DNA of 51,461 nucleotides from a virus, in the IMG/VR virus record IMGVR_UViG_3300034685_000407, positions 1 to 51,461 of that record. The stretch is one strand, 5' to 3'. Positions 24,003 to 28,878 of the stretch are shown here, in pieces. A program made the position numbers and the translations under genes. Numbering within the stretch: position 1 is the first letter of the stretch; each line of letters opens with the position of its first letter. Under the pieces are notes generated by a model. It worked only from the letters and a program-made list of their open reading frames with translations. It was not told the DNA's origin and ran no database searches.

Positions 24003-24485
24003 TTAAAATTCTCTAATAAAAGCATCTAAAATATCACAGATTGTAGCTTCTATTCCATACTTCTTCTCTAAATTTGGAATAATCCTCTTGTAAATTTCAG
24101 CAACTTCTCCCAAAGGAGCTTTTCCTATTTTTGTTCCAAGTCCAGGTATAGCAATGGTTTTGCATGATAGTTGATTGGCTCTATCGAAAATAGCATATAG
24201 ACACTTTTCAACAGTTTCAAGACTACATCTTTGTCCAGGCATCTTCATCGTTACTGCATGAATAATATACCTGCACTTTAACTTTCCAGCCTTTGTATAA
24301 TAAGTTTTCCCAGTGTCAAATCTATATCTTACGCATAGGCTAATCGCTTCCTTCTCTATTTCAAATCCGCCAACCTTTTTAATTGCTCCAGCTACTCCTG
24401 CTCCCATGCACCCTACATACCCATTGGCCGCATTTATAATAGCATCTACTTGCAGTTTTGTTATATCTCCTTTTACTACTTTCAT
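24003..24485 (-). CDS. Macro-domain protein
   Basis: Macro domains bind ADP-ribose and often remove it from proteins or nucleic acids, or clear O-acetyl-ADP-ribose. The 160-aa protein has KGDITKLQVDAIINAANGYV, the GxG(V/I)AGAI loop in GAGVAGAIKKVGG, the HAV strand and IPGLGTKIGKAP (the Pro-Gly loop near the distal ribose). ATG 24485 follows AAGGAG by 8 bases. It ends the transcript of the SSSSS-tag cluster's downstream part and overlaps its upstream neighbour's stop closely. On a mobile element it could undo host ADP-ribosylation defence; that is inference. Confidence 0.87.
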   Translation of the reverse strand: MKVVKGDITKLQVDAIINAANGYVGCMGAGVAGAIKKVGGFEIEKEAISLCVRYRFDTGKTYYTKAGKLKCRYIIHAVTMKMPGQRCSLETVEKCLYAIFDRANQLSCKTIAIPGLGTKIGKAPLGEVAEIYKRIIPNLEKKYGIEATICDILDAFIREF

Positions 24486-24490
24486 ACCCT

Positions 24491-24862
24491 TCACTCCTTA
24501 TCAGAAAAATTTGTTCCATCATGCTTATTAATTTCTTCTATAACTTCTTGTACGGCATTATTTAGAACATTTTCCTTTATAGTTTTAAACGCCATATCGT
24601 ATCCTTCAAGGCCACCAAAGTCTATAAGACCTGTATTTCCACAATTAGTACATTTCCATGGAATTGTTCCTCCAAACCCCATTGCTTGGGACATTTTAGG
24701 TTGATCCTTATATTTGTTATATGGTGCAGGGAGTTTTTCCGCCCTGTCTCCCAACCCTCTAGGATACCATTTACCATAACTTTGTATAGCACCTTTGTGT
24801 CCACACTTTAAGCATCTTACATCTTCTTTAACTTCATATAGGCTAACACCTTCGTAGCTCAT
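24491..24862 (-). CDS. Two-knuckle zinc protein, 123 aa
   Basis: Starts at ATG 24862 behind AAGGAGGAG in the conserved ATGATGATGAAGGAGG leader. The protein has CLKCGHKG (residues ~17-24) and CTNCGN (~76-81), probably one zinc ribbon with an inserted basic, Tyr- and Pro-rich loop (GKWYPRGLGDRAEKLPAPYNKY), and ends in a helix. The next upstream tagged frame reads through a terminator, this gene's leader and its start codon in the same frame. A 198-aa fusion is therefore formally possible. The leader and ribosome site argue for a separate start here. Confidence 0.65.
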   Translation of the reverse strand: MSYEGVSLYEVKEDVRCLKCGHKGAIQSYGKWYPRGLGDRAEKLPAPYNKYKDQPKMSQAMGFGGTIPWKCTNCGNTGLIDFGGLEGYDMAFKTIKENVLNNAVQEVIEEINKHDGTNFSDKE

Positions 24863-25087
24863 ATACTTCTCCTCCTTCATCATCATAAAAATAATATTGA
24901 TATATTCTAACATTAACAGTTTTATTAAAACGACATCAAGTTTTACATAAAAAAAGGGAATAGGTGTGCTGTCTATTCCCATCTTTTCACTAGCAGTAAT
25001 ATACTTCTTCAAATCCTCTTTAGATATTCCGTAGCACACGAAACTTGAAGAGCTACTATTTGTAACAAAATCCAATCTAACTTTCAT
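24863..25087 (-). pseudogene. Truncated SSSSS-tag protein (copy A)
   Basis: The frame opens with a perfect tag (KVRLDFVTNSSSSSF, residues 2-16) and ~25 more residues with YGISKEDLKKYIT. Then it enters the stem of a terminator (24956-24980) without a stop. The codons after residue ~38 come from non-coding terminator, promoter and leader sequence, so the original C-terminal part has been lost. The ATG at 25087 is 1 base after the stop of copy B, showing tight coupling. Expression would give either a short tag peptide or the 198-aa readthrough product. Confidence 0.6.
24948..24980 (-). terminator. Terminator inside the copy-A reading frame
   Basis: Minus-strand stem GGGAATAG/CTATTCCC followed by TTTTTTT. 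It lies within an open frame, and the next promoter-like region follows at once. Confidence 0.8.
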
Positions 25088-25088
25088 C

Positions 25089-25466
25089 CTAAAACCCCCC
25101 ATCTTTATTAATAATTAACTCATCAGACGTATACATAAGGTTCATATCACAAAACAATGCCTCTATACCCTCATCATTACAAGCACTTCCTATATATACA
25201 AACATTCCTTTTTTGATAATATCTTGAATATCTTTTGGAAGTCCCGAAATATCATCTTCATAATAATATCGAAGAAGGTCTTGGGTAGACATTTTTTCGG
25301 ATAACCTAACAATGCATTGTGCTAAATCTTCCGCAATTGAGTATATTGGAGACTCTTTTGGGACTTTAAATATATTGAGTAGCATTTCCTTGCTTAATTC
25401 TTCTTTTGATCCAATTACAAAACTCGAACTGCTTGAGTTTGTAACAAAATCCATTCTTATTTTCAT
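25089..25466 (-). CDS. SSSSS-tag protein, copy B (125 aa)
   Basis: MKIRMDFVTNSSSSSFVIG is followed by a helical, acidic body of ~105 residues (KEELSKEMLLNIFKVPKESP, LSEKMSTQDLLRYYYEDD, a FVYIGSACNDEGIEALF strand-loop). The body has no similarity visible to me with the other copies. ATG 25466 follows GGGGAG by 8 bases. A perfect terminator lies only ~30 bases upstream, so this gene depends on readthrough from the long transcript. The stop is one base from copy A's ATG. Serines are coded TCA AGC AGT TCG AGT. Confidence 0.75.
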   Translation of the reverse strand: MKIRMDFVTNSSSSSFVIGSKEELSKEMLLNIFKVPKESPIYSIAEDLAQCIVRLSEKMSTQDLLRYYYEDDISGLPKDIQDIIKKGMFVYIGSACNDEGIEALFCDMNLMYTSDELIINKDGGF

Positions 25467-25496: not shown

Positions 25497-25523
25497 AAAG
25501 TAGCTGGAATTTCCAGCTACCTA
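25497..25523 (-). terminator. Intra-cluster terminator
   Basis: Perfect stem GTAGCTGGAA/TTCCAGCTAC followed on the minus strand by TTTTCTT, between copies C and B. It may set a step-down in expression. Confidence 0.8.
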
Positions 25524-25524
25524 T

Positions 25525-25854
25525 TTATTCCCCCACTTCTCCGTAGTGAAGCCCTATATCAGAGATGTCGATGTCTACATCATACTCCTTTTTAATAAGA
25601 TCCTTGAAGTATTCTTTTATTTGAGGAAGTGTCATTTCATCCATTAAACCCTCAATGTCAATTCCTGCATAGTAGGGTTCACTATAACACCCATAGAAAT
25701 TAACTACCTTTCCTTCATCTACACCATAACTGCATTCAAATTCACTTTTTCCCTCTTTTTGACCAAGGGTTTCAATTATGGAGCTGTCAGATACTCCTAT
25801 TATAAGGAATGAACTACTTGAACTATTCGTAACGAAATCTATTCTTACTTTCAT
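25525..25854 (-). CDS. SSSSS-tag protein, copy C (109 aa)
   Basis: Tag MKVRIDFVTNSSSSSFLIIG, then an acidic body with beta-rich SEFECSYGVDEGKVVNFYG, a short helix (LPQIKEYFKDLIKKEY) and a DVDIDISDIGLHYGE ending. The start follows GGGGGAATATAG. The stop is 26 bases before the intra-cluster terminator. Serine codons are AGT TCA AGT AGT TCA. The body is unlike copies B, D, E and F, so the common part is only the tag. Function unknown. Confidence 0.75.
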   Translation of the reverse strand: MKVRIDFVTNSSSSSFLIIGVSDSSIIETLGQKEGKSEFECSYGVDEGKVVNFYGCYSEPYYAGIDIEGLMDEMTLPQIKEYFKDLIKKEYDVDIDISDIGLHYGEVGE

Positions 25855-25867
25855 CTATATTCCCCCT

Positions 25868-26248
25868 TTAATCATCTGATAATATAATTACAGACTCTCC
25901 ATCAGATATTGAACGTAGAAAGCCTGGCATTGTTTCGTCTCCGTACTCTACGGAAATTTCTCCAATAGCAAAACCTTGGTTAATTTTATCCAGCCACTCA
26001 TCATATCTTCTTTTTGCCCACTCATCCTCTGCAAGCATTTCATCAATGGTTTCATAGCCATAGTATTCAAGAAAATATTTATCTAAATCCTCTTTTGACT
26101 TAATTGCGGATAACATATTTACAAATCCCTCAACCAGCTTTTTAGCAAACATCGGCAGCTTATTTGTTTCATCCTCTGAAAGTTGCTTAAAGGCTACCAC
26201 ATAGCTACTTGAACTAGAGTTAGTTACAAAATCCAACCTTACTTTCAT
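25868..26248 (-). CDS. SSSSS-tag protein, copy D (126 aa)
   Basis: Tag MKVRLDFVTNSSSSSYVV (Tyr replaces the usual Phe after the serines), then a long helical acidic body with FAKKLVEGFVNMLSAIKSKEDLD and DEWAKRRYDEWLDKI, ending in a DGESVIILSDD strand. ATG 26248 follows AAAGGGG by 7 bases; a longer in-frame start upstream runs back through the spacer and into the end of copy E and is rejected. Serines are coded TCT AGT TCA AGT AGC. No metal site is visible. Confidence 0.75.
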   Translation of the reverse strand: MKVRLDFVTNSSSSSYVVAFKQLSEDETNKLPMFAKKLVEGFVNMLSAIKSKEDLDKYFLEYYGYETIDEMLAEDEWAKRRYDEWLDKINQGFAIGEISVEYGDETMPGFLRSISDGESVIILSDD

Positions 26249-26300: not shown

Positions 26301-26822
26301 TTATCCGATATGTTTTGAGAATTCATCATAGGAGTCAAAGTTTTCTTTAACTTCTTTTAACAAATCTTCCATCTTCAACTCATACTTTTTCATAATATAC
26401 TTAAGAGCATCTTCTTCTGTTAATACACTCCTGGTACAAACAGGACAAATCTCCTTTGGAACAGAATCCCTATCCATGTTATCAAATACATCATCGATAA
26501 CATCTTCATCCCCTTCTTCAACCAGTGCTTTTAACTGTTCTTCCTTCTCTTCTAGTTTTTCTTTATAATAATCATAGTCTGGATCATCCTTTAACTCTTC
26601 TTTGTAATATTCAATCTGTCCATTTAGATAGTTAATAGCTGCTGTCTTTTTCATATCATCTGTTAATTTAAGATGATGTTCGCAAAATACATGCCCATTT
26701 TCACATTCATACATTCCTGCATCCTCAAGGCACATATCCATTCCGCTTTCAACAGAACCGCATATTATACATATAAAACTTGAACTTGAGGAATTTGTTA
26801 CAAAATCCAATCTAACTTTCAT
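26301..26822 (-). CDS. SSSSS-tag protein, copy E, zinc-finger body (173 aa)
   Basis: Tag MKVRLDFVTNSSSSSFICIICG runs directly into a first zinc knuckle (CIICG, ~18-22), followed by CLED..YECENGHVFCEHH (Cys/His-rich, ~31-51) and a distant CPVC (~125-128). These could bind two zinc ions in a RING-like arrangement. The middle is a highly charged coiled coil (YYKEELKDDPDYDYYKEKLEEKEEQLKAL). ATG 26822 follows GGAGGTGTTAGGAT. A GGGGG/CCCCC hairpin lies just after the stop (26280-26296). It is the only copy with an obvious metal-binding body. Confidence 0.8.
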   Translation of the reverse strand: MKVRLDFVTNSSSSSFICIICGSVESGMDMCLEDAGMYECENGHVFCEHHLKLTDDMKKTAAINYLNGQIEYYKEELKDDPDYDYYKEKLEEKEEQLKALVEEGDEDVIDDVFDNMDRDSVPKEICPVCTRSVLTEEDALKYIMKKYELKMEDLLKEVKENFDSYDEFSKHIG

Positions 26823-26838
26823 ATCCTAACACCTCCAA

Positions 26839-27150
26839 TTACATACCTTCATAGGCTTCCTCATCACTACTGAAGTGACCGCCATTCATATTTACCTTAT
26901 CCATGTCAACTCCAATAGCCTCAAAGAAATCCTCAATCATGAAATTATTAAGGAATGTCCAGCCTTTAAATAGCTTGTCTGTTTCAGTTATGCTCCAATC
27001 ATATGACTCTTCAAATAAGTCTAAATTAAGTCTTTTAGCTTCTTCGTTTAAATTCCTCATTTGCTCAATTTGTTTATCTGTTAAATCCTTTTTTAACACA
27101 ATAAAACTTGAACTTGAAGAGTTTGTTACAAAGTCCTGCCTTATTCTCAC
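26839..27150 (-). CDS. SSSSS-tag protein, copy F (103 aa)
   Basis: The most diverged tag: MRIRQDFVTNSSSSSFIV from a GTG at 27150 (GGAAGGAG 9 bases upstream). The body has a Leu/Glu-rich helix (KKDLTDKQIEQMRNLNEEAK), then SYDWSITETDKLF, WTFLNNFMIEDFFEAIGVD and an acidic end. It is first in the run after the GNAT gene (16-bp gap). Serines are coded TCT TCA AGT TCA AGT. Bodies of other copies do not align with it by eye. Confidence 0.75.
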   Translation of the reverse strand: MRIRQDFVTNSSSSSFIVLKKDLTDKQIEQMRNLNEEAKRLNLDLFEESYDWSITETDKLFKGWTFLNNFMIEDFFEAIGVDMDKVNMNGGHFSSDEEAYEGM

Positions 27151-27166
27151 CAAAACACACTCCTTC

Positions 27167-27631
27167 CTACTCTTTTAGTGTTCCATTGTATACATACTCC
27201 CCAATACCATCTACATAATAATTCTCTATTTTTTCATAAATCTGAAAACCATATTTGTTAAATAGCGAAGAGTATGCATTAATTCTTCGTGACGATACAG
27301 TAATGAGAGGTCTAATGCATTGTAAATATCGCATACTTTCCTCAAGTAACTCTCTACCCAAGCCTTGTTTTTGGTATTTAGGCAGCACCATAAGACAGCA
27401 AATTTTCTTTTCTTCCTTTTTTAATATAGAAACTGCTGCTATCTCACCTTTTATATCTATCACAATTATTTCTCTAGTATGGTTTTTAATTCCCTGTACA
27501 ACTTTATCCCAGTACCAGCTCTCAAACTTCGGGTAATCAATTATTAAAAAATTTAAGATTTCATATATTCTTTCTATATAATTATCAAATTGATTACCCT
27601 CTAGTTTTGAAACATATATATGATTGCTCAT
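27167..27631 (-). CDS. GNAT-family N-acetyltransferase
   Basis: The 154-aa protein has the GNAT layout: a central strand (REIIVIDIKGEIAAVSIL, ~55-72), a CCLMVLPKYQKQGLGRELL block with the acetyl-CoA pyrophosphate loop QKQGLG, and a tail with NKYGFQIYEKI, the usual conserved end. The substrate is not apparent; it may be a peptide amine or small molecule. It lies 9 bp after the radical-SAM gene and 16 bp before tagged copy F, so it belongs to this operon. That makes peptide acetylation a reasonable hypothesis. Confidence 0.88.
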   Translation of the reverse strand: MSNHIYVSKLEGNQFDNYIERIYEILNFLIIDYPKFESWYWDKVVQGIKNHTREIIVIDIKGEIAAVSILKKEEKKICCLMVLPKYQKQGLGRELLEESMRYLQCIRPLITVSSRRINAYSSLFNKYGFQIYEKIENYYVDGIGEYVYNGTLKE

Positions 27632-27640
27632 ATCTGTTTT

Positions 27641-28720
27641 TTATCTTAAATCCTTCTCTTTTCTGCCACAAAGCACAATACTTCTTCTAATTGGGCAACC
27701 TCCCAAACAATGAAGTCTTTCATGGCAACCAGAGCATGAATTTTTAAAGTGGCTTCTGAATTCTTCAAACTGCACTGAATCCCAAGCATTTTTTATTGTG
27801 TCATTTGAAATATCATAAGCCCAATGGAGTTCTTGATTATCAAAACTACATGGAATAGCCTTCATGTCTGATGTTATATACATTGACCATCTTCCTGCTT
27901 CACAAGTATCAAAACTTGTCCTGTCAAGGTTTGAGGTTAAATTGATAAGAGCAGGAACATTGCAACTATCAAAGCCAATTTTAAAGCCAAATTTATTGTT
28001 ATCTATGAGTTCAAAGAACTCTTTAACTCTTGGATCATCAATTTTTAGTACATTATCCTCTCTTCCAAGCCCAACAGGTTTGTGAAGCAGGAATATCACT
28101 GCATTAATTCCTTCTGGGAAGCCGTTATTCTTAAGCCTATCAATAGCCTCATCTATTGAGTTATTTCCAAGCACATAATGGATATTGGTCTTAATCCCAG
28201 CTTCAAGCAGCATCTTAATAGCTTTCATTGTGTGTTCTTGACGATACCAACTGATAGCTACTGCCCCACAATATCTCTTACAAATATCTATAATTTCTGG
28301 AGTGAAACCTAGCCCAGAACTTGTGAAATTAGGCACTATTTCATTTTCCCTGCAGTATTTTAAAATTTCCTCAAAGTCCTCGTGCTGATCAACGTCTCCT
28401 CTACCGCCCAAAGCTAATTGGTAGGTCTTTCCCTTACATTCATCTACTATTCTCTTGAAATTTTCAAGGGACATATTTGGATGATGTGTTTTTAGACCGT
28501 TTTGATAGCATTGAACACCTGATTTCATGCAAAGACCTGATTTACCATGCACACAATGTCCCATTATTCCCACATCTATAAGTTCTGGAAAAGATGTCAT
28601 AAATGGGTCTACCCCTGTATCTCTTCCATTTTCTATAACTCCGCTTCTTACATAGAAACCAGTTTTTGTATCAAATATAGATATGAATTTATTTTCCTTG
28701 TCCATTTTTTTAATTAACAT
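27641..28720 (-). CDS. Radical SAM enzyme with SPASM-like C-terminus
   Basis: The 359-aa protein heads the tagged-gene operon. The iron-sulfur/SAM region near residues 55-75 has GHCVHGKSGLCMKSGVQC, a cysteine cluster with unusual spacing rather than CxxxCxxC. LALGGRGDVDQHEDF resembles the GGxGDP motif, and later strands (FTSSGLG, AISWYRQEH, NIHYVLG) build the partial TIM barrel. The C-terminus has SMYITSDMKAIPCSFD, then CSGCHERLHCLGGCP, which is SPASM-like and would hold auxiliary clusters. SPASM enzymes commonly modify ribosomal peptides. A good leader and GGAGGAATGG site precede the ATG. Confidence 0.85.
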   Translation of the reverse strand: MLIKKMDKENKFISIFDTKTGFYVRSGVIENGRDTGVDPFMTSFPELIDVGIMGHCVHGKSGLCMKSGVQCYQNGLKTHHPNMSLENFKRIVDECKGKTYQLALGGRGDVDQHEDFEEILKYCRENEIVPNFTSSGLGFTPEIIDICKRYCGAVAISWYRQEHTMKAIKMLLEAGIKTNIHYVLGNNSIDEAIDRLKNNGFPEGINAVIFLLHKPVGLGREDNVLKIDDPRVKEFFELIDNNKFGFKIGFDSCNVPALINLTSNLDRTSFDTCEAGRWSMYITSDMKAIPCSFDNQELHWAYDISNDTIKNAWDSVQFEEFRSHFKNSCSGCHERLHCLGGCPIRRSIVLCGRKEKDLR

Positions 28721-28852: not shown

Positions 28853-28878
28853 AAAAGCATGAGCTAACGCCCATGCCT
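28853..28878 (-). terminator. Terminator after the thymidine kinase gene
   Basis: Minus-strand stem GCATGGGC/GCTCATGC followed by TTTTTT. Confidence 0.75.

Follow-up and report, generated by a model that had tools for sequence, protein, structure and literature searches.

The window analysed here is a virus record of 51,461 bp from IMG/VR (IMGVR_UViG_3300034685_000407). It contains nine consecutive minus-strand genes: a gene for a radical SAM/SPASM enzyme, a GNAT acetyltransferase gene, six genes whose products share an N-terminal tag, and a macro-domain gene (Table 1). The gaps along the run are 9, 16, 16, 52, 13, 58, 1 and -4 bp. The original prediction had placed the enzyme, the GNAT gene and the tagged copies F, E, D and C on one strand with gaps of 9-52 bp. 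This is confirmed, but the run had been ended too early, as copies B and A and the macro-domain gene continue it.

In the window the tag reads M-K-Φ-R-x-D-F-V-T-N-S-S-S-S-S-F. On the minus strand we count six in-frame occurrences of its motif; shuffles gave a mean of 0.12 and never reached six. The starts of the tagged genes (27150, 26822, 26248, 25854, 25466 and 25087) were set by a rule that holds for the family, namely that F is residue 7. By this rule copy F begins at the GTG codon at 27150 and not at the TTG codon at 27153.

Table 1. Genes and other features of the run, with their positions in the window and the basis of each assignment.
Feature	Position	Strand	Basis
Radical SAM/SPASM enzyme, 359 aa	27641..28720	-	Pfam, alignment of 130 relatives, AlphaFold, PDB comparison
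GNAT acetyltransferase	27167..27631	-	Pfam GNAT domain above cut-off; not found next to the other copies
Tagged protein F, GTG start, MRIRQDFVTNSSSSSF	26839..27150	-	Start, RBS, gap; body family
Tagged protein E, MKVRLDFVTNSSSSSF, CxxC/zinc-ribbon-like body	26301..26822	-	Body family, alignment, model
Tagged protein D, MKVRLDFVTNSSSSSY	25868..26248	-	Start/gap analysis; body family
Tagged protein C, MKVRIDFVTNSSSSSF	25525..25854	-	Start/gap analysis
Tagged protein B, MKIRMDFVTNSSSSSF	25089..25466	-	Start/gap analysis
Tagged protein A, MKVRLDFVTNSSSSSF	24491..25087	-	Start/gap analysis
Macro-domain protein	24003..24494	-	Pfam Macro 2e-23; 4-bp overlap with tagged gene A
Terminator-like hairpin after thymidine kinase gene	28855..28878	-	Consensus scan only
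Terminator-like hairpin between tagged genes C and B	25498..25522	-	Consensus scan only

Since a hairpin lies behind the thymidine kinase gene, the enzyme gene is probably the first of its own transcript. The second hairpin, an 11-bp inverted repeat with terminator-like features, parts tagged genes C and B; it is a possible attenuator and could lower the expression of the last genes. The macro-domain gene is probably co-transcribed with tagged gene A, and ADP-ribose chemistry thereby adjoins the tag operon in the window. As a neighbour of other enzyme-tag loci, the macro-domain gene did not recur.

The Pfam Radical_SAM model gave 27.8 bits for the enzyme, just below its cut-off of 29.5, and the SPASM model gave 26.4 bits, above its cut-off of 21.5. 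As the mark of a radical SAM enzyme we took a three-cysteine RS site on a partial TIM barrel, and as that of a SPASM domain the seven-cysteine motif CX9-15GX4C-CX2CX5CX3C-C. Both were found: the barrel is present in the AlphaFold model (pLDDT 94.6, pTM 0.92), the RS site consists of C56, C64 and C71, and all seven SPASM cysteines are there (C273-x17-C291, C329-x2-C332-x5-C338-x3-C342 and C351). Compared with the PDB, the model matched SuiB best (Z 26.4 over 321 residues); further matches were SkfB (Z 23.8), CteB (5why, 21.8), anSME (21.5), PqqE (20.6) and EpeE (17.0). Judged by the predicted fold, the nearest solved structures are thus SPASM enzymes that modify peptides or proteins. With the NCBIfam equivalogs, on the other hand, the best score of the enzyme was 34.5 bits against a cut-off of 400, and none of 56 members fitted any equivalog.

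The atypical cysteine layout noticed in the original prediction is real, as the RS site has the spacing CX7CX6C instead of the canonical CX3CX2C. However, it does not mark the system. Among 130 non-redundant relatives the spacing is CX7CX6C in 84, CX3CX2C in 23 and CX3CX3C in 12, with C56 and C71 invariant and C64 present in 92. Tags are also found beside the CX3CX2C and CX3CX3C lineages, and so the unusual spacing is, as far as the alignment tells, an insertion specific to one lineage.

All 130 relatives have an additional cysteine, C253 (within GFDSC), and so does the enzyme of Klebsiella phage Miro; it is also found in the enzymes of Vibrio phage D479 and of alphaproteobacteria. Four SPASM cysteines (C329, C338, C342 and C351), which by analogy with anSME would mainly be ligands of auxiliary cluster II, are missing from 23 of the 130 relatives; this leaves the RS site, C253, C273, C291 and C332 as the common core. 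In the model about 46 residues precede the barrel, so that a full RRE (PqqD-like) recognition domain seems unlikely, although the alignment with SuiB starts at residue 1. One 80%-identical enzyme gene (L009, 7998-9086) has no ATG, GTG or TTG codon where its relatives start; a good RBS lies ahead of an ATT codon, which is a possible rare start.

The original prediction had counted the GNAT gene as part of the system, and this was not borne out. A tblastn search over the loci found no GNAT homologue near the other copies, and a phmmer search of 1,948 neighbouring proteins with E up to 10 returned only the window protein itself. The GNAT gene is local cargo that the system as a whole does not conserve. 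No family of untagged genes is shared throughout the locus set; repeated neighbours, namely phage structural genes and an HTH regulator, are confined to single lineages. These results bear on the idea that the enzyme, with or without the GNAT protein, makes a small molecule for which the tagged proteins are carriers or targets. Some SPASM/Twitch enzymes do use small molecules, and BlsE, DesII and BtrN are in the list of fold matches. But since the GNAT gene is unique to the window and no other biosynthetic gene recurs, we regard this explanation as very improbable.

Across the family the tag can be written as M-K-Φ-[RK]-x-[DGS]-[FYH]-V-[TS]-N-S-S-S-[ST]-S-F, that is, 16 residues at the extreme N-terminus. 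Residue 7 is F, Y or H in 319 of 323 distinct tagged proteins. Not one of the 323 departs from the N-S-S core, although the search would have accepted Ser, Thr or Ala at each serine position; the third serine of the core has a single exception, a Cys. Two relatives outside this set have NSSD. Used by itself as a tblastn query, the tag gave no matches, probably owing to the low-complexity filter. At each core serine both Ser codon families are in use, which means that selection acts on the protein.

The bodies behind the tag are diverse. They form 61 BLAST clusters, and a profile comparison of the 14 largest body families found 2 of 91 pairs to be related; the bodies may nevertheless share deeper folds. 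Pfam and Foldseek gave no confident match for them. In the body families of copies F, E and D the tag is carried by 13 of 14, 20 of 21 and 25 of 26 members, respectively. The model of the copy E family is folded from about residue 13, with a pLDDT below 50 for residues 1-9, while half of the invariant residues of this family sit in the tag. A tail that is predicted to be disordered and yet is invariant resembles the target of an enzyme.

The same arrangement could be read differently, with the tag as a RiPP-like leader or docking sequence to which the enzyme binds while it modifies residues of the body. RiPP precursors usually have a constant N-terminal region ahead of a variable one, and the leader-binding SuiB and CteB are among the nearest structures. 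We consider this reading unlikely, as the bodies are long (the substrate-like genes encode a median of 142 aa) and fall into some 60 clusters in which we found no shared pattern of conserved residues, as the body of copy E is modelled as a folded domain, and as neither a leader peptidase nor an exporter recurs beside the enzyme-tag pair.

We then turn to the question of how strictly enzyme and tag occur together. Of 197 confirmed loci with enzyme relatives in 84,980 species genomes of bacteria and archaea, we kept 80; IMG/VR contributed 43 viral loci, some of which are near-duplicates. With the strict motif there is a tag gene at 75 of the 80 bacterial and 34 of the 43 viral enzyme loci. All 109 of these lie on the strand of the enzyme, and 103 lie within 1 kb. 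When relaxed tags (GFVTNSSS, SFVTNSSS, HVTNSSS) are included, the numbers rise to 77 of 80 and 40 of 43. At the other six loci the contig ends less than 0.5 kb from the enzyme, and two of these six end inside an upstream gene that resembles the body of a tagged family. An unbiased set of 291 genomes, drawn from a single bacterial class, contained five enzyme-bearing members, each with a tag no more than 2 kb away. Matches to the strict DNA pattern came from five of the 291 genomes, three times at the enzyme and twice by chance (at a ribosomal-protein locus and in a motif containing a stop). A search of 299 genomes from the family of one enzyme-bearing genome (G008) gave five enzyme copies, again all with a tag.

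The pairing also holds in the opposite direction. For 75 viral loci retrieved by the tag only, the enzyme was found in the flank of 64 and elsewhere on the contig of another 3 (67 of 75). The eight loci without an enzyme are on five contigs of 8-36 kb and on three of 111, 121 and 331 kb. These three long contigs (L139, L140 and L149) have tag genes with no enzyme detected; they may rely on an enzyme of the host, or the contigs may be incomplete. The co-occurrence check proposed in the original prediction was thus strongly positive for this SPASM subfamily, in genomes of bacteria and contigs of IMG/VR as well as in plasmids and cultured phages. This is the opposite of the outcome that would have counted against the prediction, a subfamily that usually occurs without tag genes.

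A few large contigs with tags and no detected enzyme would fit a tag that is an unmodified sorting or interaction signal, the genes being neighbours because they serve one process, with no relation of enzyme and substrate between them. Against such a signal stand the near-obligate pairing in both directions and the tag residues that track the enzyme lineage (see below), as well as the peptide or protein substrates of those SPASM enzymes that have been characterised to date (PMC5491770). We therefore hold this explanation to be very improbable.

The pairing persists at 30-40% enzyme identity, in plasmids, Clostridia and T4-like phages, with tags in which T is replaced by S (FVSNSSS). For example, an alphaproteobacterial enzyme with 36-39% identity is found on pAt-type plasmids of Agrobacterium, in Rhodobacter and in Rhizobium. 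The proteins beside it start with MKIKLDFVSNSSSTSF, which indicates that Ser may stand in place of Thr in the tag. A pattern that permits only Thr misses the tags of T4-like phages, whereas a Thr/Ser pattern finds two in Klebsiella phage Miro and five in Vibrio phage D479. The two tagged proteins of Miro (MKIRSGFVSNSSSSSF) are encoded about 20 kb from the enzyme, and both are also present in the E. coli phages RB16 and Lw1. In Lw1 the enzyme gene occupies 89191-90342 of KC801932.2, and the tagged proteins are Lw1_gp111 and gp116. In D479 the enzyme is VPHD479_0104, which is 57% identical to that of Miro; another gene close to the tags of this phage, of 386 aa, was considered as the enzyme and rejected. 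In T4-like phages generally, 20 kb lie between tags and enzyme, or the two belong to different clusters.

A search of 50,697 phage records found the Miro enzyme in 173, its tag protein 1 in 174 and its tag protein 2 in 175, all in the same host genera; these matching counts reflect one clade and are not independent support. D479 is the examined enzyme match outside the Miro clade, and it has tags as well. In the PHROG collection, family 7293 of the RB43/Slopekvirus T4-like phages is homologous to the window enzyme (7.7e-27, about 30% identical), and family 7397 is the tagged Miro protein CPT_Miro119, with the window tags matching its first 30 or so positions. Both are listed there as of unknown function and are not linked together. 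Unlike the adjacent genes of the window, those of RB43/Slopekvirus lie about 20 kb apart, and their tag is FVSNSSS. Another tagged protein, CPT_Miro114 (L240 380-850(-); also in L241 and L242), matches PHROG 132, 'head-tail adaptor', with 1.1e-9; it might be a part of the virion, or the annotation might be misleading.

Tag and enzyme also vary together. Tags of the same locus agree at position -3 (R or K) and at position -1 (D or not) to a degree that was reached in 0 of 5000 permutations, while at positions -4, 0 and +9 we saw no agreement beyond the permutations. Position -3 follows the enzyme lineage, with 149 R versus 2 K beside CX7CX6C enzymes and 1 R versus 28 K beside CX3CX2C enzymes. 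Shared descent within a locus could account for part of this. As the sole cause it is weakened, however, because the bodies are unrelated and because the body family of copy E carries different tags at different loci (KSF in L137, LAH in L125 and xDF elsewhere).

Taken together, we think it likely that these genes form a two-part protein-modification system in which the SPASM maturase acts on the N-terminal tag, and the enzyme is probably an undescribed tag-modifying radical SAM enzyme. The original prediction had left the choice between tag and bodies as the modified part; the tag is the better putative target, being the only feature that the proteins share and one that varies with the enzyme lineage. 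Against this reading weigh the three long tagged contigs without a detected enzyme, the separation of tags and enzyme in the T4-like phages, whose joint distribution is that of one clade, and the part that shared descent could have in the lineage-matched tag residues.

In the mechanism that we propose, the short SPASM enzyme, which has no obvious RiPP recognition domain, would recognise the disordered tail of 16 residues, and hydrogen abstraction would begin on at least one residue of the [TS]-N-S-S-S core. This could end in an epimerisation, in a formylglycine-type oxidation of Ser, Thr or Asn, or in a tag-internal crosslink that uses F7 and the core. For an epimerisation, the common cysteine core together with C253 would permit a thiol hydrogen donor. 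Epimerisation leaves the mass of a protein unchanged, so an epimerase would be invisible to a comparison of masses after co-expression. The modified tail would then be a shared functional handle, with each body supplying its own specificity, and the gene context suggests a role in phage-host conflict.

Several known systems can be compared with this proposal. The SPASM protein maturase anSME converts Ser or Cys to formylglycine in a short motif of a larger protein (PMC5491770). The window enzyme is likewise a SPASM enzyme, close to anSME in fold, with a short motif in larger proteins as its putative target. However, the tag core V-T/S-N-S-S-S lacks the sulfatase-type C/S-x-P/A-x-R motif, C253 lies upstream of the first SPASM cysteine and not at the position of Cys-261 in anSME, and the NCBIfam anSME model gives 12.6 against a cut-off of 349. 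The SPASM RiPP maturases SuiB, SkfB and CteB are the best structural and profile matches. Their substrates consist of leader and core peptides, whereas here a constant tail of 16 residues sits on folded proteins, and the stretch before the barrel of the window enzyme is short by comparison. With the epimerase EpeE in mind, the common cysteine core can be described as the RS site, about one auxiliary cluster and a free-looking cysteine, which would allow EpeE-like chemistry.

For another conflict system, Aravind and colleagues have predicted that a peptide effector is modified by a radical SAM enzyme (PMC7159879). As described in the searched text of that paper, the likeness lies in a radical SAM enzyme, a separately encoded effector and an adjoining NTPase; on the other hand, those systems are FtsH-type ternary ones, and the text searched contains no such tag (PMC7159879). 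The libraries and literature that we searched gave no family name or paper for the tag or for the enzyme-tag pair, and the pair was not described in the literature on radical SAM enzymes with NACHT/STAND proteins, on phage RiPPs or on RB43-type phages.

Some sister lineages have operons that combine the pair with a NACHT/STAND NTPase. In two Clostridia (L213 3991-8916(-) and L214 3739-8501(-)) the pair occurs with a trypsin-like protease and an Avs2-like/NACHT NTPase, and on plasmids of Agrobacterium, Rhodobacter and Rhizobium (L225-L228) it lies behind a SMEK-NACHT NTPase. These operons look like a candidate NLR-type defence system. No such NTPase was seen beside the pair in the window; they are present in sister lineages only. 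A search of two bacterial families added no members to the STAND-linked enzyme subfamily. It is possible, though doubtful, that the enzyme and tag make up a widespread, cargo-independent system in which a single radical SAM chemistry on the [TS]NSSS tail provides many unrelated proteins of phages and bacteria with a common head, reactive or binding, for use in phage-host conflict and, in some bacteria, in connection with NLR-type NTPases.

If the tag is indeed modified, this would give a function class to an orphan radical SAM family of gut Clostridia, large phages and T4-like phages, and also to dozens of families of small, uncharacterised proteins with nothing but the tag in common. It would further suggest that the same modified tail is used by NLR-like NTPases and by phages. 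The N-terminal 16 residues would be a specific peptide in which to seek new chemistry, and versions open to direct testing are found in RB16 and Lw1, two classic phages that can be grown on laboratory E. coli. As a minor observation, the NACHT/STAND operons of L213, L214 and L225-L228 each hold a further small gene, with a product of 120-146 aa.
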